A stretch of 50,385 nt of DNA from Planctomycetia bacterium (GTDB taxonomy: Bacteria; Planctomycetota; Planctomycetia; Gemmatales; Gemmataceae). The stretch spans positions 1 to 50,385 of the forward strand of contig SYCV01000008.1 in the NCBI GenBank assembly GCA_005786805.1, read 5' to 3'. The translations under genes were made by a program, and so were the position numbers. Positions within the stretch are counted from its first letter, which is position 1; the number at the start of each line of letters is the position of its first letter. Of the stretch, positions 10,230 to 47,456 are shown in pieces. The notes beneath the pieces are model-generated. The model saw only the letters and a program-made list of their open reading frames with translations, searched no databases and was not told the DNA's origin.

Positions 10230-11759
10230 ATGAACAAGACATCCTCCTTGATTTTGCGTGGCGTGAATGTCACCTATAAATCAAAAACATGGGACCTTTC
10301 TGATTCCGCCTTTGTGGGCAGGGATAAAAGCCTTAAAATCATTCTTGATGATAATTCCGTCAGCAGAAAACACGCTGAAATAGCCCTATCAAGGGAAGGT
10401 TGGCAGATTTGCGACCTGGGTAGCACCAATGGAACTTATATAAATGGCAAAAAACTTTCCAGGGGCTTTTTTAATATCCTTCCCAATGACATCATCCAGT
10501 TTGGCGAAATCGCACTAAGAGTCGAGGCTATTCACGATCTTCCATTAACCAAATCCATGGAAGACGCCATCACGGATGACTTCAATGTCGATGAGGTGTA
10601 CAGCTCCAAATGGGATGAGGCACTCCAAAGCCTTGGAACTTTGGGCGCCAGGCTTCCCAAGGCGGGAGAAAAATTCTTCGCATTGTTGCAGGCGGGACAT
10701 TACCTCGCAAAAGTTGAAAAACAGGATGAATTACTGAAGAACATACTTAAAGACACCGTGGCCGTGCTGGAGGCCCAAAGAGGCGCGATCGCCCTGATTA
10801 ATCCGACCACCAACAATCTTGAACTCAAGTCAATTGAAACAGGTTTTGACGACCCGAAAACCAAAAACACCAACCTCCGCGTACCCTACAGTAAAACCAT
10901 AGCGAACCAATGTCTCGCGAAATCAGAATCCATTCTCTACAACAACCCCAAGGAACTTGAAAAACTTGAAATAACAAGCAGCATAGTCGAGGGAACCATG
11001 TCCTCGATCATGTGTGTGATCCTGCGCACGCCCCGAAAAAATGTCGGGATTCTGCATCTGGACCGGGGACCCCTGCAACCACCATTCACCAGGGATGACC
11101 TCAAACTGGCGGATGCGCTTGCGGCGCATGTTTCCTCAGGCATCGAGTGCGCCATGCTTCTGGACAAGCAACGGAATTTATTCTTGAACACGGTGACCAT
11201 CCTAGCCCAGGCGGTGGAACTGCGTGACATATACACAGGCGGGCACACCAACCGGGTCACTGCAATCGCGATGTTACTGGCGAATGGCGCCAAGCTTAAT
11301 GACGATGAAGTCGATAAGATCAGGACTGGGACCCCGCTTCACGACATCGGTAAAATCGGGATTGATGATGCCATCCTGCGAAAACCAAGCAAGCTCACGC
11401 ATGATGAGACAGAAATCATGAAGCAGCACACCACCAAGGGGGCCGCTATCATCATGCTGGTTCCCGACCTTCATGACATCATCCCGATAGTGCGATCGCA
11501 CCACGAAAGATGGGATGGGAAAGGTTACCCTGACGGGCTGGCAGGTGAGAATATTCCCCGCATTGCCCGGGTGGTTTCAATTGCTGACGCGATGGATGCG
11601 ATGGTTTCCGACAGGCCATATCGCAAGGGGTTATCAGTTGAAAAGGCCTTGGAGGAAATAGGGAAGGGTAGAGGCACCCAGTTTGACCCGGACTTGGTGG
11701 ATGTGTTTCTTGGAATGCGGCATCTGCTGGAAAGCTACCCTGAAATTCCAATAAACTAG
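10230..11759 (+). CDS. FHA-GAF-HD-GYP signalling protein
   Basis: This 509-residue cytoplasmic signalling protein has three domains. An N-terminal FHA domain (about residues 10-95; VGRD, SVSRKHAEI, DLGSTNGTYING) binds phosphothreonine peptides. A GAF domain lies at about 150-310. The C-terminal HD-GYP domain (about 320-500) has HDIGKIGI and HHERWDGKGYPDGL, the metal ligands and GYP signature of cyclic-di-GMP phosphodiesterases. It would link Ser/Thr kinase signalling to c-di-GMP breakdown. All key HD-GYP residues are present, so activity is expected. Confidence 0.9.
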   Translation: MNKTSSLILRGVNVTYKSKTWDLSDSAFVGRDKSLKIILDDNSVSRKHAEIALSREGWQICDLGSTNGTYINGKKLSRGFFNILPNDIIQFGEIALRVEAIHDLPLTKSMEDAITDDFNVDEVYSSKWDEALQSLGTLGARLPKAGEKFFALLQAGHYLAKVEKQDELLKNILKDTVAVLEAQRGAIALINPTTNNLELKSIETGFDDPKTKNTNLRVPYSKTIANQCLAKSESILYNNPKELEKLEITSSIVEGTMSSIMCVILRTPRKNVGILHLDRGPLQPPFTRDDLKLADALAAHVSSGIECAMLLDKQRNLFLNTVTILAQAVELRDIYTGGHTNRVTAIAMLLANGAKLNDDEVDKIRTGTPLHDIGKIGIDDAILRKPSKLTHDETEIMKQHTTKGAAIIMLVPDLHDIIPIVRSHHERWDGKGYPDGLAGENIPRIARVVSIADAMDAMVSDRPYRKGLSVEKALEEIGKGRGTQFDPDLVDVFLGMRHLLESYPEIPIN

Positions 11760-36796: not shown

Positions 36797-36816
36797 ATAA
36801 CTCTCAGGAGTTGCGT

Positions 36817-37596
36817 GTGATTGTTGAAGAAAGAAGGCAAAGGGTTTTAGATCTGGTAACCACCAAAGGGTTTGCAACCTTGGCTGATCTTGCCTTGGAA
36901 ATTCAAGTTTCCGAATCGACTGTCAGGCGTGACCTCGAGTTCTGGCATCAGCAGGGAAATCTCAAGCGCACTCATGGTGGTGCCATCTTTGTGGGGGACG
37001 GCTCCAGTTTTCCCTCCTTGGAAGATCGCATTGATGCCCAGTTGGAAGAAAAAAGAGCCATCGCCCGCGCTGCGGTTGCCCGAATTTGTGATGGTGACAC
37101 CGTGCTTCTTGATGGGGGCACCACCACCCTTGAGGCTGCTCGCCTGCTCCTGGGAAGGTCCATCCAGGTTGTGACCAACAGTCTGCCCATTGCCACCTTG
37201 CTTGCCGGCAGCAGGGAGACTGACCTGGTGCTTCTTGGGGGTTATGTCTACCCCAAGACCGGAGTCGCCCTTGGGCCCTTTACGGTGCGCATGATGCAGG
37301 ACCTGCATGTTCACCAGACTTTGCTTAGTGTCAGCGGGTTGACCGAGCGGGGATTGTTCAACAGTAATTTGCTTTTGGTTGAAACCGAGCGCGAGATGAT
37401 GCGCTGTGCCGATGAGGTGGTCGTGCTTGCTGATCATACCAAGGTTGGTCGTCCGGCTCTGGCGTTTCTCTGCGAATGGTCTGAAATTGATCTTTTGGTC
37501 ATTGATCGCAAACTTGAAGACAGGAAAAAATCCATGTTGGCACAAACAGGCGCGCGCCTTCTCATCGCTGGCGACCTTGAGGAGTTTGGAAGATGA
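36817..37596 (+). CDS. DeoR/GlpR-family regulator of the microcompartment operon
   Basis: This 259-residue repressor has an N-terminal winged helix (VEERRQRVLDLVTTKGFATLADLALEIQVSESTVRRDLEFW) and a C-terminal sugar-phosphate-sensing domain (DGDTVLLDGGTTTLEAARLL). The GTG at 36817 sits 6 nt after CAGGAG, while the in-frame TTG at 36811 would touch the ribosome binding site, so GTG is preferred. It overlaps the pduL ATG by 4 bp. As first gene of the operon it is expected to autoregulate via the palindrome upstream; the inducer may be fuculose- or rhamnulose-phosphate. Confidence 0.88.
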   Translation: MIVEERRQRVLDLVTTKGFATLADLALEIQVSESTVRRDLEFWHQQGNLKRTHGGAIFVGDGSSFPSLEDRIDAQLEEKRAIARAAVARICDGDTVLLDGGTTTLEAARLLLGRSIQVVTNSLPIATLLAGSRETDLVLLGGYVYPKTGVALGPFTVRMMQDLHVHQTLLSVSGLTERGLFNSNLLLVETEREMMRCADEVVVLADHTKVGRPALAFLCEWSEIDLLVIDRKLEDRKKSMLAQTGARLLIAGDLEEFGR

Positions 37597-38291
37597 GCTC
37601 AGGCACCCTAAAAAACAATCTGATGATTCCCGACAGGTCGCGTATCGAGCAACTGGTTCGTGAGGCTGTTGTGATGCAGCTTGGCAGCTTGCAAACCAAG
37701 GCTCTCGCCCCGGGGCAAACCAATCCCCTCCTGGTCAATGTATCGGCCCGTCATGCCCATGTGACCCAGGAAGACCTTGAAAGGCTTTTTGGCAAGGGAC
37801 ATAAATTAAGAGTGTTTAAGTCCCTTTATCAGGATGGCTTTTTTGCCGCCGAGGAAACCGTCACCATCATCGGGCCCAGGCATCGCATGATCACCAACCT
37901 GCGCATACTTGGCCCATGCAGGGACCACAGCCAGGTGGAGCTGGCATTCACAGATGCCGTGCAACTTGGCTTGGATATTCCCGTTAGAAAAAGTGGGGAC
38001 CACCGTGACAGCCCGGGTTGTTACCTGCTCGGTCCCGCGGGGATGATCCATCTTTCCAAGGGTGTCATAAGGCATGAGCGCCATGTTCACATGAGCCCCG
38101 CGGATGCGGGTTATTACCAGGTCAAAGACGGCGATCGCCTTAACTTGCGCGTCAAAAGCGATTGTGCCGTGGTTTTCGAAAACCTTCTTTGCAGGGTGGC
38201 GGATGCCTCCAAGCTGGAAGTGCATATCGATACCGACGAAGGGAACGCGTGTAATTATGCCCGGGCGACCGGGTTTGAACTGTTTCGATGA
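37593..38291 (+). CDS. pduL: PduL-type phosphate acyltransferase
   Basis: PduL exchanges CoA for phosphate on an acyl group, recycling CoA inside the shell. The 232-residue protein has two zinc-site motifs: VSARHAHVTQEDLERLFG (about 50) and RHERHVHMSPADAGYY (about 160). The N-terminus (RIEQLVREAVVMQLGSLQ) is an amphipathic helix followed by a flexible linker, a typical encapsulation peptide. The gene overlaps the DeoR gene (ATGA). Next come the shell genes, with a hairpin in between. The likely acyl group is lactoyl or propionyl. Confidence 0.92.
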   Translation: MSSGTLKNNLMIPDRSRIEQLVREAVVMQLGSLQTKALAPGQTNPLLVNVSARHAHVTQEDLERLFGKGHKLRVFKSLYQDGFFAAEETVTIIGPRHRMITNLRILGPCRDHSQVELAFTDAVQLGLDIPVRKSGDHRDSPGCYLLGPAGMIHLSKGVIRHERHVHMSPADAGYYQVKDGDRLNLRVKSDCAVVFENLLCRVADASKLEVHIDTDEGNACNYARATGFELFR

Positions 38292-38346: not shown

Positions 38347-38640
38347 ATGGCAGTAAACATGGAAGCCCTCGGGATGATCGAGACCCGGGGCATGGTACCT
38401 TTGATCGAAGCCAGCGACACCATGCTGAAGGCAGCGAATGTGAAGCTGGTTGGTTGGACAAAAATCGGCAGTGGCCTGGTCACCGCCATGGTTGTGGGCG
38501 ATGTTGCCGCGGTAAAGGCAGCGATAGACGCGGGTGCCGCCGCCGCCAGCAGGGTGGGCGAAGTGGTCGGGGTCCAGGTGATCCCAAGGCCGCATGAGGA
38601 TGTAGGCACCCTGATTCCCGAACGAAAAGCGATCAGCTAA
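38347..38640 (+). CDS. BMC-H hexameric shell protein 1
   Basis: The 97-residue protein is a single PF00936-type BMC domain: [30 protein letters not shown], pore loop [30 protein letters not shown] and VIPRPHEDV. The pore motif KIGSG is identical to that of PduA, whose pore passes propanediol and similar polar metabolites. It forms hexagonal tiles of the shell. It has a GGAG site in front and is followed 30 bp later by a second BMC-H with a different pore. Confidence 0.96.
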
Positions 38641-38670: not shown

Positions 38671-38970
38671 ATGGCGACAGTAGCAAATCGTGGTGGACAG
38701 GCCGAGGCGCTCGGCATGGTTGAGACAAAGGGATACATTGCCGCCGTGGCAAGCACGGATGCGATGTTGAAAGCCGCGAACATAACACTTGCGGGCCAGG
38801 TTCAGATTGGAAACGCGTTTGTATGCACCTTTGTGCGTGGTGATGTGGGCTCGGTGCGCGCAGCGGTTGACGCTGGTGCCCAGGCTGCCACTGCCAATGG
38901 TGAATTGGTGAGCGCCCATGTGATACCAAGGCCTGAAAAGGACATCCTTGATTTTTATCTGGGCAAGTAA
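38671..38970 (+). CDS. BMC-H hexameric shell protein 2
   Basis: This 99-residue BMC-H protein has the domain features EALGMVETKGYIAAVASTDAMLKAANITL, pore loop QIGNAFV, GDVGSVRAAVDAGAQAA and HVIPRPEKDIL. The pore differs from that of the upstream paralogue (Gln-Ile-Gly-Asn-Ala), so the two hexamers may pass different molecules. ACGGAGGA is an excellent ribosome binding site. No trimeric BMC-T gene is seen in the locus, so these two and the three pentamers would build the whole shell. Confidence 0.96.
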   Translation: MATVANRGGQAEALGMVETKGYIAAVASTDAMLKAANITLAGQVQIGNAFVCTFVRGDVGSVRAAVDAGAQAATANGELVSAHVIPRPEKDILDFYLGK

Positions 38971-38982
38971 AGGGGCTTGTTG

Positions 38983-40164
38983 ATGAAGATATTGGTGGCA
39001 AACCTGGGTAGCACCAGCTTCAAGTACCGTCTGTTTGACATGGATGGCGAGAAGTTGCTTGCCCGGGGTGGTGTCGAGAGGATTGGCGCACCTGTGTCCC
39101 CATGCTTTGTCGAGTCGGGTGGAACCCGCGCTGATGCCGAGTTGGTCGCAAGGGATCATGCCGCCGCGGTTACATTATGCCTCGAGCAACTTTCCCAGAG
39201 GGGCTGCCTGAAAAATCCGGGTGAGCTTGCCGCTATCGGGTTCAAGGCGGTTCATGCCAAGGATGTGAGTGGCACCCGTAGGGTGGATGAGAAAGTGCTG
39301 GATGCCATGCAGGCATATGCCGATGTGGCACCGGCCCACAACCCACCTTACATACAGGCGATGCGGTTGCTGGCTTCGAAGCTGCCCCAGATACCATTGG
39401 TGGCATCCTTTGAAACGGGTTTTCATCAAACCATTTCCGATGCGGAGCGTTCCTATGCCATTCCCCACGAATGGATGGAAAAGCATGGTGTCAAGAAATG
39501 GGGTTTCCATGGTGCCAGCCATCGTTACATAGCGATGCGTGCCGCTGAGCTTATGAAAAACCCTAATGCAAGGATCATATCCTTTCATCTGGGTGGGTCG
39601 AACTCGGTGTGCGCGATAAGCGAGGGTAAGTCGAGGGCGAACAGCCTTGGGATGAGCCCGCAGTCCGGCTTGCCACACAACAATCGTGTCGGGGATTTTG
39701 ATGTCTTCGCTCTGCCTGTGTTATTGCGGGAAACAGGCAAATCGATCGAGGAAATCCTTGATCTTCTCGCCAATCACAGTGGCCTCATGGGTTTATCAGG
39801 TGGCAAGAAGGACATGCGTGACCTGGAGGCTGCCGCCTTGGCGGGAGACCAAAAATCCAAGGTTGCCCTGGATGTGTTCATAGCATCCATCCGCCATTAC
39901 CTTGGCGCCTACATGGTTTTACTGGGTGGAGTGGATGCCATCGTTTTCACCGGGGGCATAGGTGAAAATTCAACGCTGACCCGTTCCGGAGTTTGCGCGG
40001 ACCTTGGATGGTTCGGCGTTCACCTTGACGGGGAAAAGAACAAGACTGCCCGGGGAGAGACAACTCTTCACCTGGAAAACAGCAAGGTTCAGATTTGGAT
40101 CATTCCCACGAACGAGGAATTGGTGGTCGCGAGGCAGACTCGTGATCTTTTAACAGGAAAGTAA
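38983..40164 (+). CDS. ackA: Acetate/propionate-kinase-family enzyme of the microcompartment
   Basis: The 393-residue kinase of the acetate kinase family converts an acyl-phosphate (here probably lactoyl- or propionyl-phosphate made by PduL) into the acid with ATP formation. Motifs include VANLGSTSFKYRLF, HNPP, FETGFHQTIS, GFHGASHRYIA, HLGGSNSVCAI, GKKDMRD and VFTGGIGENS. The usual HLGNG motif is HLGGS and LNxGSSSxK is VANLGSTSFK, so it belongs to a divergent branch. ATG at 38983 is chosen over TTG at 38977. The selenoprotein gene follows after 12 bp. Confidence 0.9.
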   Translation: MKILVANLGSTSFKYRLFDMDGEKLLARGGVERIGAPVSPCFVESGGTRADAELVARDHAAAVTLCLEQLSQRGCLKNPGELAAIGFKAVHAKDVSGTRRVDEKVLDAMQAYADVAPAHNPPYIQAMRLLASKLPQIPLVASFETGFHQTISDAERSYAIPHEWMEKHGVKKWGFHGASHRYIAMRAAELMKNPNARIISFHLGGSNSVCAISEGKSRANSLGMSPQSGLPHNNRVGDFDVFALPVLLRETGKSIEEILDLLANHSGLMGLSGGKKDMRDLEAAALAGDQKSKVALDVFIASIRHYLGAYMVLLGGVDAIVFTGGIGENSTLTRSGVCADLGWFGVHLDGEKNKTARGETTLHLENSKVQIWIIPTNEELVVARQTRDLLTGK

Positions 40165-40176
40165 AGGAGAATTCAA

Positions 40177-40410
40177 ATGATAGTGAACATCACCTACTGC
40201 ACCTCCTGAGGGTACAGGAATTTTTCCGTCAGTTTGGCGGGAGCAATTCAGAAGGCATTCGCGGATAAAGTCACAGTCCACCAGAAGACGGGTTCAGGTG
40301 GGGTTTTTGACGTGGAACTTGATGGTGAAATGATCTTCAGCAAATGGGATCAACATCGATTTCCCGATAACAAGGAAATCATACAAGTGATCGAGGCCCG
40401 GCTTAAATAA
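40177..40410 (+). CDS. SelW/Rdx-family selenoprotein with in-frame UGA (selenocysteine)
   Basis: Normal ORF calling splits this gene because its 11th codon is UGA (40207-40209). Read through as selenocysteine it gives 77 residues, with the CxxU redox motif at Cys8-Thr-Ser-Sec11 in VNITYCTSUGYR, exactly as in selenoprotein W. The C-terminal half matches the Rdx thioredoxin-like fold: GSGGVFDVELDGEMIFSKW, a basic/aromatic stretch, then NKEIIQVIEARLK as the last helix. The start ATG has AAAGGAGA (40163-40170) 6 nt upstream, 12 bp after the kinase stop. A consensus bacterial SECIS hairpin follows the UGA. The stop is followed at once by GGAG for the next shell gene. Members of this family are thiol redox proteins; its link to the microcompartment is inferred from operon position. 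Confidence 0.93.
40218..40249 (+). promoter_or_regulatory. Bacterial SECIS element for the SelW-like gene
   Basis: A hairpin lies in the coding sequence directly after the UGA. The upper stem pairs 40223-40230 with 40236-40243 (8 bp, including G-U pairs); after one bulged C (40244) the lower stem pairs GAATT (40218-40222) with AATTC (40245-40249). The loop is AGUUU (40231-40235), with G in the second loop position, 21 nt after the UGA. This meets the published bacterial SECIS pattern (small loop, G among its first two bases, 16-37 nt spacing). Confidence 0.85.
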
Positions 40411-40421
40411 GGAGTTTCATC

Positions 40422-40742
40422 ATGTTCGTGGCACGCGTCACCGGCTCGGTTGTTTCATCCCAGAAGGTATCGTCGATGGTCGGCCATAAACTGCTCATCG
40501 TCGAGCCCCTGCGGGTTGATCCTGCCAACCGCGACAAGCTTGTGGGCACGGGAAGAAGCTTTGTCGTGGTGGATACCGTGGGCGCTGGCCTTGATGAAAT
40601 GGTGCTGATAGTCCAGGGTTCAAGCGCCAGGCTAACACCCGAGACGGAAAAACTTCCCGTTGACGCCACGATCATTGGGATTGTTGATACCGTGAGTGTC
40701 CAGAACAAAATCGTGTTCAACGCCAGTGGCAAAAATGGCTAG
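40422..40742 (+). CDS. BMC-P pentameric shell protein 1 (EutN/CcmL family)
   Basis: The 106-residue protein has the EutN/CcmL fold: MFVARVTGSVVSSQKVSSMVGHKLLIVEPL, then GRSFVVVDTVGAGLDEMVLIVQGSSAR and ATIIGIVDTVSV. Five copies close the vertices of the polyhedral shell. It is the first of three BMC-P genes. Its GGAG (40411-40414) touches the stop codon of the selenoprotein gene, so the two are tightly linked. Confidence 0.95.
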   Translation: MFVARVTGSVVSSQKVSSMVGHKLLIVEPLRVDPANRDKLVGTGRSFVVVDTVGAGLDEMVLIVQGSSARLTPETEKLPVDATIIGIVDTVSVQNKIVFNASGKNG

Positions 40743-40782: not shown

Positions 40783-42201
40783 ATGCAAGTGACAGATGAT
40801 CTGGTGAGAAGTGTTGTGCAGCGGGTGCTGGCTCAAATTCAAGCGCCTTCAGGAGTGGCCACTTCCGCCAAGGCCGGAGCGGATGGTGTTTTCAGCGATG
40901 TTGAATCCGCGGTTGCCGCCTCGGTTTCAGCACAGCGGGCCTTTGAACGAAGAGGACTTGAAGACCGGAGAAAAGCACTTGCTTGCATCCGTAAGATCTG
41001 TCTTGAAAGGGCCGATGAACTGGGCCGGGAAGAAATGGAAGAAACAAGGATAGGCAGGCTTGCCCACAAGATAGAGAAACTCAAGCTGATCGCTGATCGC
41101 ATCCCTGGTGTTGAATTTCTCAAGACCGAGGCATTTAGCGGAGAGAACGGCATAACCCTCCAGGAGTATGCCCCATTTGGAGTGATCGGTGCCATCACTC
41201 CTGTCACCCATTCGCTTCCCACCCTTGCATGCAATGCGATCAACATGCTTGCCTCGGGTAATTCTCTTGTGGTGAACGCCCATCCCTCCGGTGTGAAAAT
41301 AGCCTGCAAGGGCGTGAAGCTTTTCAACCAGGCGATTCGTTCCGCGATTGGGATAGACAATCTCATCACCATCATCGACAAGCCGACCTTGGAAACAGCC
41401 CAGGCTATCTTTGATCATCGGGAAGTTAAGATGTTGTGCGTGACCGGTGGGCCCGCCGTGGGCAGGGCCGCCTTGCGAAGTCCCAAGCGTGCGGTGGTCG
41501 CGGGCCCGGGCAATCCCCCTGTTGTTGTGGATGAAACCGCGGACATAGACAACGCCGCTCGAAGCATCATTGCGGGCGCCGCCTATGACAACAATCTTCT
41601 TTGCATAGGTGAAAAGGAAGTTTTTGCGGTCGCGGGAATCTTTGATGAATTGATGGAGGCAATGAGCAGGCACAAGGCGGTGAGATTGAATGCAGCGCAG
41701 GTGGACGCGCTTACCAAGATCGCTTTCAGCCCCTCCGAAGACAAGAAGTACATGGTGCCCACGAAGGAACTGATCGGGCAGGATGCCGCATTTCTTGCCG
41801 CAAAAATCGGACTTTCTATCCCTGCGGACACCGAGTTGCTGTATGGCGAAACCGATGAGTCGAACCCGTTTGTTCCCACCGAACAAATGATGACCTTCGT
41901 TCCCTTTGTGAAAACCAGGGATGTGGATTCCGCGATCGAATTGGCCAAGAAACATGAGCATGGTTACAGGCATACCAGCATCATTCATTCCCGCAATGTG
42001 GAAACCATCACCCGCATGGGTCGTGAAATGGACACCACCCTTTACATCCAGAATGGCGCGAGTGTCGCGGGCCTGGGCAGTGGTGGTGAGGGATACCTTA
42101 GTTTCAGCATTGCGACTCCCACAGGCGAGGGTGTAACCACCCCGTTGACATTCACCAGGCAAAGGCGCTCGACCACGGTTGGCTCGATGCGGGTTATCTA
42201 G
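40783..42201 (+). CDS. CoA-acylating aldehyde dehydrogenase (PduP-like) with encapsulation peptide
   Basis: This 472-residue enzyme oxidises an aldehyde (lactaldehyde or propionaldehyde) with NAD and CoA to acyl-CoA. The catalytic Cys274 is in [32 protein letters not shown] and [11 protein letters not shown] are typical of the acylating branch. The N-terminus ([17 protein letters not shown]) is an amphipathic encapsulation helix followed by an Ala/Gly-rich linker. It sits between two pentamer genes. It is the signature enzyme of the compartment. Confidence 0.94.
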
Positions 42202-42209
42202 GAAAAAAG

Positions 42210-42467
42210 ATGCAAATCGCCACCGTTGTTGGAACTGCGACCGCAACCATCAAGCATGACAGCCTCAAAGGCTGGAAGCTTGTGTTGATACAGCCCTTGC
42301 AGAAGAACGGCGGGGCCGATGGCGAACCGATGCTTGCGATTGATCACCTGGGTTCATCAATTGGCTCGAATGTGATCATCACCAGCGAGGGTGGCGCGGT
42401 GAGGGATATCATGAAGCGGAAGGATTCGCCCGTGCGTTGGATGGTCATGGGGTTGTGTGATTCATGA
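42210..42467 (+). CDS. BMC-P pentameric shell protein 2
   Basis: This 85-residue EutN/CcmL protein reads MQIATVVGTATATIKHDSLKGWKLVLIQPL, MLAIDHLGSSIGSNVIITSEGGAVRDI and WMVMGLCD. It is shorter than the first BMC-P. It starts 8 bp after the aldehyde dehydrogenase and overlaps the next gene by 4 bp (ATGA), so translation is coupled. Confidence 0.93.
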   Translation: MQIATVVGTATATIKHDSLKGWKLVLIQPLQKNGGADGEPMLAIDHLGSSIGSNVIITSEGGAVRDIMKRKDSPVRWMVMGLCDS

Positions 42468-43066
42468 ATAATGGAGTGCATGAATGGCCCGGGTCGGTTC
42501 TTGCGCTCAATGATTTGCAGCGCCTGGGCCCAAACCTTCGGGAGCTGGTTGTAAGGGACAAGGTGGTGCTGACTCCCTGCGCCAGGGATGAGTTAAAAAG
42601 GCTAGGTGTCTCACTGGTAAGAAGGGATGAAAAAACACCGAGAAATATCGGGTATGGCTCTGATGCAATGTACCCCCAGATAGCAACCGTGGTTCTGGCG
42701 TTGGACAAGGAGGGATTGACCCTTAAGGCATTGGAGTTTCAGCGCGGATTGGATTCGATGCTCCTTGGCAAGTCGGCGGGCGAGTTGGTTTCAAGGGGAG
42801 AGATGAAAAGCGCGGTATTGTTTTGCGCGGAACCCGAGGCTGCAGCATGTGCCGCAAACAAACTGGTTGGTATCAGGGCCGCTGCGGTAAACAACATCCT
42901 TCAGGCCAAAAGGGCTTGTGCCTCGCTGGGGGCGAACCTGATGGCCGTGGAAATGCCAGGCCGGACTTATTTTGAAATCAGGCAGGTGATGTTCCTGATG
43001 ATGGATGCAAAGGGATGCCATCAAGGCAACCATAAATTGTTGGAGAGACTCGATGCGCGTAGCTGA
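42464..43066 (+). CDS. Microcompartment-locus protein with RpiB/LacAB-like C-terminal part
   Basis: The 200-residue protein has a C-terminal half (SAVLFCAEPEAAACAANKLVGIRAAAVNNILQAKRACASLGANLMAVEMPG) that looks like the sugar-phosphate isomerase RpiB/LacA-LacB, which also carries G-I-R-A and a small-residue loop. The N-terminal half (WPGSVLALNDLQRLGPNLRELVVRDKVVLTPCARDELKRLG) contains a segment seen in BMC-associated proteins near the word TPxARD, and could be a targeting or binding part. Catalytic residues of RpiB cannot be confirmed. It may isomerise a sugar phosphate or sense one; this is inference. It overlaps genes on both sides. Confidence 0.6.
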   Translation: MNNGVHEWPGSVLALNDLQRLGPNLRELVVRDKVVLTPCARDELKRLGVSLVRRDEKTPRNIGYGSDAMYPQIATVVLALDKEGLTLKALEFQRGLDSMLLGKSAGELVSRGEMKSAVLFCAEPEAAACAANKLVGIRAAAVNNILQAKRACASLGANLMAVEMPGRTYFEIRQVMFLMMDAKGCHQGNHKLLERLDARS

Positions 43067-43343
43067 GGTCATAGGATCGGTAACATTGTCGCGGGCACAC
43101 CCTTTGCTGGTTGGATCGCGCTGGATTATCGGGGTTCCCTACAGCCTAGAGGCCCTTCGTGCCGATGGTAAGGGTGATGGGGAAGACCTGGTGATATTTG
43201 ATAACCTGGGGGCGGGACTGGGATCAAAAATAGGATTTAGCGAGGGGGGTGAGGCGGCTGCCCCCTTTTATCCGGTAAAAAAGCCGGTGGATGCCTATGC
43301 CGCATTGCTGCTCGATAAACTGGAAATTTCACCAAGGGATTAG
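43053..43343 (+). CDS. BMC-P pentameric shell protein 3
   Basis: This 96-residue EutN/CcmL protein begins MRVAEVIGSVTLSRAHPLLVGSRWIIGVPY and continues LVIFDNLGAGLGSKIGFSEGGEAAAPF. The start at 43053 has GGAGA 6 nt upstream and gives the usual N-terminus; a longer frame from 43005 lies inside the upstream gene. It overlaps that gene by 14 bp. Three different pentamers are usual for planctomycete-type compartments. Confidence 0.93.
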   Translation: MRVAEVIGSVTLSRAHPLLVGSRWIIGVPYSLEALRADGKGDGEDLVIFDNLGAGLGSKIGFSEGGEAAAPFYPVKKPVDAYAALLLDKLEISPRD

Positions 43344-43376
43344 TTTGATTAGTCAATCAGGAACAAGGAATTGATC

Positions 43377-44234
43377 ATGTACACAAATGAATACAAACTC
43401 AAGGAATTGATCTGCGAGATCGGTCGCAGGGTTTACAACAAGGGCTTTGCCGCCGCCAATGATGGGAATATATCCATCCGGCTAAACGACCGTGAACTTC
43501 TTTGCACCCCGACGATGGTCTCGAAGGGTTACATGAAGCCCGAGGACATTTGCAAGGTGGATTACGAGGGCAAGCAGCTTGCGGGGATACGCAAGCGATC
43601 AAGCGAGATACTATTGCATCTATCGGTATACAAGAACCGGCCTGATGTGAATGGCGTTGTTCATTGTCATCCACCCCATGCCACCGCTTTTGCCGTGGCT
43701 CACGAGCCGATTCCAAAGGCGATTCTTCCCGAAGTTGAGGTGTTTTTGGGCGAGGTTCCCACAGCGGTTTATGTAACCCCGGGCGGGCAGAAATTCGCCG
43801 ACTCAATCACCCCCTATGTCAAGGATTGCAATACCATAATCCTTGCAAATCATGGCACCATCACCTTTGGCCCTGATCTTGAAAAAGCTTATTTCAACAC
43901 TGAAATCATCGATGCTTATTGCCGTATCCTTATTCTTTCAAGACAGTTGGGCAGGATTAATTATTTCTCCGACAAGGAAACAGCGGAGTTGCTTGAATTG
44001 AAGAAGAAACTCGGCTATGACGATGTGAGGTTCAAGAACACTAACTGTGACCTGCGTGGTGAAAACTGCTTCAATGAGGGATACAGCAAATTCCATCCTG
44101 AACATGTGGCGTTTCCCGTGGCGGAACAGGACGCCTGGGTCAACGCGAAATCCTCGCCAGGCAACAATAACCTGGATGTCGACGCCCTTGTCAAGAAAAT
44201 CACGGACCAGGTAATGGCATCGTTGAAAGGTTAA
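43377..44234 (+). CDS. Class II aldolase (fuculose/rhamnulose-phosphate type) with C-terminal cargo helix
   Basis: The 285-residue zinc aldolase of the AraD/FucA family has AAANDGNISIRL near the start (phosphate loop), zinc ligands in VVHCHPPHATAFAV and ILANHGTITFG, and the catalytic acid in LPEVEVFLGEVP. After a Gly/Asn-rich linker (PGNNNLD) it ends with VDALVKKITDQVMASLKG, an amphipathic helix that matches encapsulation peptides. It would cleave fuculose- or rhamnulose-1-phosphate to DHAP and lactaldehyde inside the shell. The ATG at 43377 follows AAGGA with 7 nt; the earlier TTG is less likely. Confidence 0.92.
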   Translation: MYTNEYKLKELICEIGRRVYNKGFAAANDGNISIRLNDRELLCTPTMVSKGYMKPEDICKVDYEGKQLAGIRKRSSEILLHLSVYKNRPDVNGVVHCHPPHATAFAVAHEPIPKAILPEVEVFLGEVPTAVYVTPGGQKFADSITPYVKDCNTIILANHGTITFGPDLEKAYFNTEIIDAYCRILILSRQLGRINYFSDKETAELLELKKKLGYDDVRFKNTNCDLRGENCFNEGYSKFHPEHVAFPVAEQDAWVNAKSSPGNNNLDVDALVKKITDQVMASLKG

Positions 44235-44613: not shown

Positions 44614-45642
44614 ATGAAGGTAAGTATCATTGGTGGCGGCGGCCTGGTTGGAAGCATGGCTGCATACGCGTTGCAATTTGGAAGGGCAGCAAGCCATATC
44701 TGCATCATCGATGCCAACAAGGATGTCGCGCAGGGCGTCGCCTTGGATCTTCTCCAGGGATCCTGCCTGGTGGCGGACCAGCGAATAACCGCTGGCACCA
44801 TGGAGGATGTCTCCTCAAGCAATGTGATTGTGATCACCGCGGGCCTTCGTAGAAAACCTGACGAGAGCAGGCTTGATCTCATCAACCGTAATGTTGATCT
44901 TTTCCTCAATCTTCTTCAGCAGGCGAAATCCGCGGGCATCAAGGATAACACCTACCTTGTGGTGGTGAGTAATCCCGTTGATGTGCTTACATATCTCGCG
45001 GGAAAACTCTCAGGGCTCGATCCTAAGCGGGTGGTTGGTCTTGGCACGGTGCTGGATACCGCCCGTTTCCGCAGCCATCTTGCCAAACGACTTCAAGTCG
45101 CGCCAACCCAGGTCCAAGCATTGCTTCTGGGCGAGCATGGCGACAGCATGGTGCCGATCTGGTCAAGCGCAACCGTTGCGGGCCTGCCTTTGGAACAATT
45201 CCCCGGGTGCAATCCCCAGCTCATGAAGGATGCCTTTGAAGAGACGAAGACCGCGGGCGCAACCATGATCAAGCTAAAGGGCGGATCTGGTTTTGCTGTC
45301 GGGGTTTCAATTGCTGAAGTGGTTCAATCAATCATCCTGGACAGCAGGAAAATCCTGCCGGTAAGCTCGCTGCAAAACGGGCTTTATGGCGTGCATGATG
45401 TATGCCTATCAGTCCCGACCGAGGTTGGCTGTGGTGGTGCGCGCAAACTTTTTGAACTTGCCCTCACCCCCAAGGAGCGCATCGGCATCCAGCAATCAGG
45501 CAAGGTGCTTCGAGAAATAATCGACCAGGTTGAGGCCCGTATAGGCAACCCAGGCACTGTTCCAATCGGGGCGTCATCGCCGATCAATCCCCAGGGCAAA
45601 ACCCCGCCCAGGTCTGCCTGGCAACCCTCCAGGAAATATTAG
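44614..45642 (+). CDS. Lactate/malate dehydrogenase-family enzyme
   Basis: The 342-residue NAD-dependent 2-hydroxyacid dehydrogenase has the Rossmann motif IIGGGGLVGSMAAYAL, ITAGLRRKPDESRLDLINRN (specificity loop), VVSNPVDVLTYLA, and catalytic His in LLGEHGDSMVPIWS. At the key specificity position (102 in LDH numbering) it has Arg, as in malate dehydrogenase, not Gln as in lactate dehydrogenase, so lactate specificity is not assured. In this locus it would recycle NADH/NAD for the aldehyde dehydrogenase or oxidise lactate to pyruvate. The C-terminal tail is Pro/Ser-rich. Confidence 0.85.
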   Translation: MKVSIIGGGGLVGSMAAYALQFGRAASHICIIDANKDVAQGVALDLLQGSCLVADQRITAGTMEDVSSSNVIVITAGLRRKPDESRLDLINRNVDLFLNLLQQAKSAGIKDNTYLVVVSNPVDVLTYLAGKLSGLDPKRVVGLGTVLDTARFRSHLAKRLQVAPTQVQALLLGEHGDSMVPIWSSATVAGLPLEQFPGCNPQLMKDAFEETKTAGATMIKLKGGSGFAVGVSIAEVVQSIILDSRKILPVSSLQNGLYGVHDVCLSVPTEVGCGGARKLFELALTPKERIGIQQSGKVLREIIDQVEARIGNPGTVPIGASSPINPQGKTPPRSAWQPSRKY

Positions 45643-45644
45643 CC

Positions 45645-45896
45645 ATGGATGATGTAAAACTCATCGCATCCCTTGTATCGCAGCCCGCTGGATACACCAT
45701 CAGCATCGGTGGCGGCCTCGATATCACCCGCCTGGATGAGAATATTTTTTCCGTCACCTTTCCTGAATCCGAATCCATCGATTCCGACATCAAGGAAAAG
45801 CGCTTCAAGGACGCCGAGTCCGCAGCCAGATTCTTCGAGCAAAAACGACAGGCCTTGAAGCTGGGTGATGACTTCTTGACGGAGGATGATGAATGA
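45645..45896 (+). CDS. Small acidic protein of unknown function in the microcompartment operon
   Basis: The 83-residue protein (VSQPAGYTISIGGGLDITRLDENIFSVTFPESESIDSDIKEKRFKDAESAARFFEQKRQ) has a short beta part, a helical middle and an acidic tail. I do not recognise it. It starts 2 bp after the dehydrogenase stop and overlaps the next gene by 4 bp, so it is translated together with both and probably works with the following protein. Confidence 0.65.
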   Translation: MDDVKLIASLVSQPAGYTISIGGGLDITRLDENIFSVTFPESESIDSDIKEKRFKDAESAARFFEQKRQALKLGDDFLTEDDE

Positions 45897-47155
45897 CCAT
45901 CAAATCCCTCGATCAAAAACTTCAGCGCATTCACGCCAATCCAAAGTTGAACAAGGATTTCATCCTTGCGGATGCCAAGGATCCTGACATGGCGCTGGGC
46001 ATTGCTGCGATGGGAAAATCCCCAGAGGCCCATCATGGGGAAACCAGGTATCGCAGCCTGGCGGAATTCAGGGATATCATCACCCAGGTTGTGGAGCAAA
46101 AACTTGTCGACATCATGCTGATGTCCGCAAGCACCGCGGAAGTGATGGCGATTCACAGGAATATTTTCGCCAACAGCCCGGTAACCCCTGCTGCCCGCGC
46201 CAACGATACCACGGACATTCATATTCTTCGCGGGGGCCAGTCCGCCACCCAGCCATCGCTTCCTTTTCGCACCGCCACGCTTGATCATATCCAGTGTGGC
46301 AAATGGAGTTGCTCCCCTCTTGAAAGGCAGAAGGGTGTGAACCTTGGCCTTTACAGCATTACATTCAACAACGATTCCAATCTGGATCGCAACGCCCTTG
46401 AGGAATACAAGAAGTTTCGTATCGACGCCGAGCAAAAGGGTTTTCGCCACTTCTTGGAAATATTTGACCCGAATCGGGAGAGTGCGGTCGACCCGTTGAA
46501 ACTCCCCGGTTTCATCAATGATGCAATCGCCCGGACTTTGGGCGGTGTGACCTCCAAAGGCAGGCCGGTGTTTTTGAAGATCGTTTATCATGGCCCCAAA
46601 GCCATGGAAGAACTCGTGCATTACGATCCACATCTTGACGTGGGAATCCTGGGTGGTTCCGCAGGCACCACCTACGATGCGTTCAAGCTTCTTGCCGAGG
46701 CCAGAAAGTATGGCGCCAGGGCAGCTCTTTACGGCCGGAAAATCAACAACGCTGAACACCAGCTTTCCTTCATCCGCTATCTGAGGCTTCTTGCGGATGG
46801 TCAGGTTTCGCCTGAAGAGGCTGTGAAATCTTATCATGGTGATTTGCAGAAATTGAACATCAAGCCTCATCGTTCGCTGGCGGATGACATGAAAATCACC
46901 ACCGGTGTGATGAATTATTCCGGGTCAGGCACCACGATCAGTTTCCCCGAAAGTGCTTCTGATAAAAAAGATGACCATGATTGCGCCTGCAAGGGTGGCC
47001 CCAAGGCGTGCCCATGTGATGCACCTGTTGCTGAAGTTAAAAAAGAAGCTCCCCCAGCCAAGGTGGATAAAACCAGCCCGGTTGATTTTTCAAAAATGAC
47101 CGCTAAAGAGAAAATGGCTTATCATCAAAAACGCTGGAATCGCATCCTGGGTTGA
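45893..47155 (+). CDS. Unrecognised TIM-barrel-like cargo candidate with Cys cluster and C-terminal helix
   Basis: The 420-residue protein is not assigned to a family I can name. The pattern FILADAKDPDMALGIAAMGK, FVNLGLYSITFNN-like strands, HFLEIFDPN, VFLKIVYHGPKAMEELV and DVGILGGSAGTTYDAFKLLAEARKYGARAALYGRKIN resembles a (beta/alpha)8 barrel like class I aldolases. Near the end a cysteine cluster CACKGGPKACPC (CxCx6CxC) is followed by a Pro/Lys-rich linker and a terminal helix SKMTAKEKMAYHQKRWNRILG. Linker plus terminal helix is how BMC cargo is tagged. It may be an aldolase or sugar-phosphate enzyme, and the cysteines may hold a metal; both are inferences. Confidence 0.7.
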   Translation: MTIKSLDQKLQRIHANPKLNKDFILADAKDPDMALGIAAMGKSPEAHHGETRYRSLAEFRDIITQVVEQKLVDIMLMSASTAEVMAIHRNIFANSPVTPAARANDTTDIHILRGGQSATQPSLPFRTATLDHIQCGKWSCSPLERQKGVNLGLYSITFNNDSNLDRNALEEYKKFRIDAEQKGFRHFLEIFDPNRESAVDPLKLPGFINDAIARTLGGVTSKGRPVFLKIVYHGPKAMEELVHYDPHLDVGILGGSAGTTYDAFKLLAEARKYGARAALYGRKINNAEHQLSFIRYLRLLADGQVSPEEAVKSYHGDLQKLNIKPHRSLADDMKITTGVMNYSGSGTTISFPESASDKKDDHDCACKGGPKACPCDAPVAEVKKEAPPAKVDKTSPVDFSKMTAKEKMAYHQKRWNRILG

Positions 47156-47189: not shown

Positions 47190-47456
47190 ATGGATCCCTA
47201 TTGGCTTCTTTTGTTTATACCATTGGCATACTATTTATTGAGAACGGGTAGCCTAGCGATGGACCTGCGTTTGCGGCGGGTTGAAAGAAAATTGGATGCC
47301 ATCATTAATCACATGGGTATAGTCATTAATTCTGGGGTTGATCCACAACTTTTAGAACTGGTCCGCGAAGGCAAAAAAATCGAAGCGATCAAACTATATC
47401 GTGAAAGCACTGGCGTTGGGCTAAAGGAAGCCAAGGATTTTGTTGAAAGCCTCTAG
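47190..47456 (+). CDS. Small membrane protein with L7/L12-C-terminal-like domain
   Basis: The 88-residue product has an N-terminal transmembrane helix (YWLLLFIPLAYYLLRTG) and a C-terminal segment (LLELVREGKKIEAIKLYRESTGVGLKEAKDFVESL) that matches the ribosomal protein L7/L12 C-terminal domain (KKIEVIKxVRExTGLGLKEAKDLVE). This is a known small family of membrane proteins, often next to unrelated genes. It lies 34 bp after the last BMC gene and may be its own unit. Function is unknown. Confidence 0.75.
   Translation: MDPYWLLLFIPLAYYLLRTGSLAMDLRLRRVERKLDAIINHMGIVINSGVDPQLLELVREGKKIEAIKLYRESTGVGLKEAKDFVESL

Follow-up and report, generated by a model that had tools for sequence, protein, structure and literature searches.

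A selenocysteine-containing SelW/Rdx protein predicted in a planctomycete microcompartment operon

Is a UGA codon inside a planctomycete microcompartment operon a stop, or is it read as selenocysteine (Sec)? The question arises in the window, by which we mean the whole analysed stretch of 50,385 nucleotides from a Planctomycetia bacterium of the family Gemmataceae. Between its acyl kinase gene and the next shell protein gene lies a frame that becomes a full-length SelW/Rdx gene if one UGA is read through. The following features define it:

40165..40172, + strand: ribosome binding site (RBS) of the Rdx gene, aaaggaga (aaggaga region), from the sequence
40177..40410, + strand: predicted selenoprotein gene of the SelW/Rdx family, 77 aa, CxxU motif (C8, U11), from Pfam/NCBIfam matches, a TGA kept in 14 genomes, and dN compared with dS
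40207..40209, + strand: UGA predicted to be read as Sec, residue 11, from TGA in 14 BMC-linked genes and TGC/TGT Cys codons in Obscuribacter-type homologues

The frame runs from an ATG at 40177 to a TAA at 40408-40410, with one in-frame UGA (40207-40209). Between the kinase stop (40162-40164) and this ATG lie 12 nt, and the TAA overlaps the ggag of the RBS that serves the following gene, which encodes a BMC-P shell protein and starts with the ATG at 40422. The original prediction had described this arrangement correctly throughout: frame, 77 residues, CxxU motif, own RBS, 12-nt spacing after the kinase and a stop touching the BMC-P RBS. Only two frames on both strands of the 50 kb combine a Cys placed three codons ahead of a TGA with 50 or more open codons beyond it, and the Rdx frame is one of them.

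Translated with Sec, the product reads MIVNITYCTSUGYRNFSVSLAGAIQKAFADKVTVHQKTGSGGVFDVELDGEMIFSKWDQHRFPDNKEIIQVIEARLK. It matches Pfam Rdx (PF10262) with an E-value of 3.8e-19 and 69.1 bits (cut-off 22.6) and TIGR02174 (CXXU_selWTH) with 67.5 bits (cut-off 34.2), in agreement with the SelW/Rdx assignment first proposed. Against NF041051 (SelTWH_Campy, an NCBIfam equivalog for a Campylobacter subgroup) it scores 74.3 bits, below the cut-off of 88, and it is therefore not filed in that subgroup. A profile of Rdx relatives retrieves solved SelW-related proteins, for example 2oka, 2fa8 and 2obk. The AlphaFold2 model, for which Sec11 was replaced by Cys, has a pLDDT of 96.7 and superposes with TM scores of 0.90-0.93 on 2fa8 and 2obk and 0.83 on mouse SelW (2npb); in it C8-T-S-U11 forms the CxxU motif where strand 1 of a thioredoxin-like fold ends. 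The model does not extend past the Rdx fold at either terminus, and no targeting or encapsulation peptide is visible, so that the protein may act in the lumen or in the cytosol beside the shell. Compared with congeners, the codons past the UGA have dN 0.046 and dS 1.09-1.17 (dN/dS ∼0.04), a sign of strong purifying selection on the part of the protein encoded past it.

The surrounding genes are as follows:

36811..37596, + strand: DeoR-family regulator (PF00455, PF08220)
37593..38291, + strand: PduL phosphotransacylase (PF06130)
38347..38640, + strand: BMC-H shell protein 1 (PF00936)
38671..38970, + strand: BMC-H shell protein 2 (PF00936)
38977..40164, + strand: acetate/propionate-family kinase, AckA (PF00871; TIGR00016 over cut-off)
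40422..40742, + strand: BMC-P shell protein 1 (PF03319)
40783..42201, + strand: BMC-type aldehyde dehydrogenase (AldDH; PF00171; NF011927, 593 bits), with Cys274 invariant in the family's loci by a Cys count
42210..42467, + strand: BMC-P shell protein 2 (PF03319)
43005..43343, + strand: BMC-P shell protein 3 (PF03319)
43371..44234, + strand: class II aldolase (PF00596), the signature enzyme of PVM-type loci
44614..45642, + strand: lactate/malate dehydrogenase (LDH) family protein (PF00056, PF02866)

The gene order is DeoR, PduL, two BMC-H, AckA, Rdx, BMC-P, aldehyde dehydrogenase, BMC-P, an RpiB-like gene, BMC-P, class II aldolase and the LDH-family gene. By gene content this is a PVM-type (fucose/rhamnose) microcompartment operon, with all parts of the type present; such loci are described in the main text of PMC4207490 as degrading fucose and rhamnose via lactaldehyde. 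Compared with the PVM-type locus of the main texts of PMC4207490 and PMC8217296, the window shares the class II aldolase, AldDH, PduL, AckA, DeoR and LDH-family genes and the excess of BMC-P (three) over BMC-H (two) genes, but adds the Sec-Rdx between AckA and BMC-P. Those two main texts mention neither Rdx nor selenium. Three further proteins are encoded here. The 200-aa protein at 42464-43066, between two BMC-P genes, has a partial RpiB/LacB-like match and is fast-diverging. The 420-aa protein at 45893-47155 is kept in the family's BMC operons and has a Cys-rich stretch near its C-terminus; it has no Pfam match and only a weak, aldolase-like one to NF005556 (E 0.0016). The 88-aa protein at 47190-47456 has an N-terminal hydrophobic stretch followed by a C-terminal ribosomal L7/L12-like segment.

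An Rdx gene occupies the same junction (AckA, Rdx, BMC-P) in 14 genomes of five genera within one family (the window, G001, G004, G006, G034, G030, G491, G492, G020, G487, G488, G027, G479 and G480). All 14 carry TGA at the same codon, and a public record (L181) adds a fifteenth case with the same arrangement and TGA. The original prediction had proposed a look for same-place homologues in related BMC operons, and had allowed that the UGA might be an error for a Cys codon. The homologues exist, and a TGA shared by 14 genomes from separate assemblies rules out chance and sequencing error.

Most relatives lack the gene. The BMC-type aldehyde dehydrogenase is present in 38 of the 95 genomes of the window's family, and among 25 other family loci (three of them cut off at the AckA-BMC-P1 junction) none of the 22 that span the junction has Rdx. 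In these Rdx-less loci the matched ends of AckA and BMC-P1 lie ∼3-120 nt apart, leaving no room for a 231-nt Rdx gene. Nor does Rdx occur in any of 29 loci from other families, both flanking genes being visible in about 25. Since most related PVM operons do without it, the pathway generally does not need Rdx. A non-exhaustive scan of a public genome collection with exact peptide patterns found BMC-type Rdx in planctomycete-type operons only, plus four Cys-type homologues. These come from Cyanobacteriota/Obscuribacter MAGs, have a Cys codon (TGC/TGT) at the Sec position and have no BMC genes in their surroundings. A plasmid search returned a single distant Rdx, in Thermomicrobium.

In a tree of 78 columns, whose deeper branches are weak, the BMC-linked Rdx proteins form one clade (support 99/95) apart from the selD-linked Rdx, and the tree rules out a recent copy of the latter. 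Most carriers of the BMC-linked gene also have the selD-linked one. The two share the Rdx family, the TGA at the same codon and the same genomes of the planctomycete family, but they are only about 25-30% identical and belong to different clades, and in the window's genome the second adjoins selD. Most planctomycete Rdx have a CxxUNY-type motif, whereas that of the window has CTSUGYR. One selD-type homologue (L036, G011:C172:17774-17995) has Gly at the Sec position (CSVG), through Sec loss or a MAG sequence error. In the free tree built from eight BMC proteins, the distribution of Rdx takes two changes; a tree that unites the 14 Rdx-bearing operons in one clade is an equally good fit (p-AU 0.55). 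The gene may have been gained once, or gained early and later lost. One genome has a second PVM operon (L150, G482:C139), which clusters among those of other families, suggesting horizontal transfer. Partner-protein Cys columns tracking Rdx presence were also considered. AldDH 164 and BMC-P3 101 have Cys only in the family's Rdx-less loci; the outgroup also lacks Cys there, which fits a single change in the Rdx-less clade, and nothing firm follows about a link to Rdx.

A candidate recoding signal lies downstream of the UGA:

40225..40241, + strand: putative bacterial SECIS hairpin, in which 40225-40231 pairs with 40235-40241 around a GUU loop (40232-40234), from pairing over 14 sequences, the invariant loop, and stability compared with recodings

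Published bSECIS rules call for a loop of 3-9 nt with G in its first two positions, a stem of 4-16 bp, a distance of 16-37 nt after the UGA and an MFE of at most -7.5 kcal/mol (PMC13188914). The hairpin UCCGUCA-GUU-UGGCGGG falls within all of these limits: its GUU loop begins 22 nt past the UGA and is closed by A-U, with six to seven pairs and -9.5 kcal/mol. Over the 14 sequences pairing holds in 94.9% of cells; slid controls reach 60.2% at most. The loop and closing codons (AGT TTG) are invariant in all 14, although Ser and Leu each have six codons. At one inner stem pair eight of the sequences have GC and six have AU; the switch follows two related groups and may thus have happened just once in evolution. 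In all 14 the native hairpin region exceeds synonymous recodings in stability (z -0.65 to -3.13). For the window's own hairpin 7% of synonymous recodings are equally stable, which makes the single-sequence evidence modest and leaves the weight on the 14-sequence comparison. Taken together, the family match, the same-place homologues, the conservation past the UGA and this hairpin argue for the central claim of the original prediction, a Sec-containing SelW/Rdx protein in a planctomycete microcompartment operon. A separate terminator-like hairpin, UCCUGAGGGUACAGGA at 40204-40219 followed by AUUUUU (ATTTTT in DNA; to 40224), overlaps the Sec UGA. It is not conserved between genera and is possibly due to chance; the window has 15 terminator-like patterns against 12.9 in shuffles, so that they are no commoner than expected.

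For Sec machinery in the genome, on which the prediction also depended, the picture is mixed. The window's own bin has a Sec-type selD (353 bits, with an in-frame TGA of its own) directly beside the second Sec-Rdx; selA, selB over cut-off and selC (tRNA-Sec) were not found in this bin, which is 88.7% complete. All three are present in three congeners (G001, G004 and G006) and in four carriers of other genera (G034, G020, G027 and G030), and all four sel gene families are seen among congeners with the same operon. Given an incomplete bin and sel genes in relatives with the operon, the missing selA, selB and selC do not refute the Sec reading. An EF-Tu-sized protein picked up by the SelB profile in congeners was not picked up in the window's bin, and the bin's tRNA-Sec candidates were resolved by ARAGORN as ordinary Ser, Arg, Leu and Tyr tRNAs. 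Contig C13 of the bin (4324 bp) can be aligned with the contigs that carry selC in G006 and G001; it breaks off about 2.2 and 1.9 kb, respectively, short of the selC position, which fits an assembly gap. About a fifth of the bin, read in stretches, contained no flanks of selBA. The second Sec-Rdx lies directly upstream of selD (G000:C258:20380-21582; L075 ∼10380-11590, minus strand), and the selD TGA has the context CAG-TGA-AGK. Counting selD and the two Sec-Rdx genes, the bin would have at least three selenoprotein genes. In G020 a single contig carries both the BMC-linked Rdx and, ∼7 kb away, a tRNA-Sec gene (G020:C155:67074-67167).

SelW-like proteins have a CxxU redox motif and are reported to interact with glutathione (PMC1088965); in Campylobacter jejuni, translation of SelW continues past the UGA (PMC11955535). 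The window's Rdx resembles these bacterial SelW-like selenoproteins (C. jejuni, PMC11955535; Sargasso Sea, PMC1088965) in size, CxxU motif, thioredoxin-like fold and a UGA followed by a hairpin, and differs in being encoded in a microcompartment operon and in forming a separate clade. Sec machinery and selenoproteins are also described in Porphyra-associated planctomycetes (PMC4807772), in a main text that names neither SelW nor microcompartments. SelW-like selenoproteins are already known in bacteria. In the open literature that was searched, including a 2026 selenoproteome review (PMC13188914), we found no description of a selenoprotein in a microcompartment operon; a dedicated one appears unreported, although priority is not certain.

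We consider it probable, from comparative sequence evidence, that this is a genuine selenoprotein gene of a PVM operon, with its UGA decoded as Sec and its product engaged in redox upkeep of lactaldehyde-pathway thiols. UGA codon 11 would be decoded by SelB and tRNA-Sec, directed by the hairpin at 40225-40241, to give a 77-residue thioredoxin-like protein whose redox pair is Cys8-x-x-Sec11 and which is produced alongside the shell, acyl kinase and aldehyde dehydrogenase. As a selenol/thiol oxidoreductase it would keep reactive thiols of the pathway (AldDH Cys274, CoA) usable; Cys274, invariant in the compared loci, would be a likely client. The original prediction had likewise suggested protection of the catalytic Cys of the aldehyde dehydrogenase, or control of redox conditions within the shell, as a possible function. 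A further step, that Sec-Rdx sits in or on the shell as a dedicated selenoenzyme and redox module of the lactaldehyde pathway, making organelle catabolism selenium-dependent, is one we advance tentatively, the odds being somewhat against it.

The protein might instead be a real selenoprotein with a general, cytosolic antioxidant role, placed in the operon for co-expression only and having no specific pathway partner. In the same phylum SelW/Rdx proteins are widespread beyond BMC operons, and almost all of their genes have TGA; that breadth, like the lack of a targeting extension and the many related PVM loci without Rdx, suits such a role. A distinct clade coexisting with the selD-linked Rdx in most of the same genomes, and exactly one operon position kept in five genera, fit it poorly, and we rate it unlikely while giving it some weight. 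Very improbable, in our judgement, is a UGA that acts as a selenium-dependent switch, where readthrough or termination alters translation of BMC-P and aldehyde dehydrogenase and the protein is secondary. The mid-operon position, the stop overlapping the next RBS and the terminator-like hairpin at the UGA lend themselves to that idea, but the hairpin's lack of conservation and ordinary frequency, and the strong constraint on the protein past the UGA, do not. We give still less credence to a true stop in a pseudogene, a misassembled gene or a chance frame, for which the bin's missing selA, selB and selC speak; the 14 TGA orthologues and dN far below dS lead us to reject it, and the two further intact TGA-containing selenoprotein genes in the bin, with a contig stopping ∼2 kb before the selC position, also stand against it.

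Annotation that halts at UGA can be expected to leave this gene out, and surveys of microcompartment loci may therefore have overlooked it. If the preferred reading of a Sec-decoded, pathway-serving Rdx is right, the gene would link selenium to fucose and rhamnose breakdown in planctomycetes, and would give the bacterial SelW/Rdx proteins, a poorly understood family, a defined pathway in which their function is testable.
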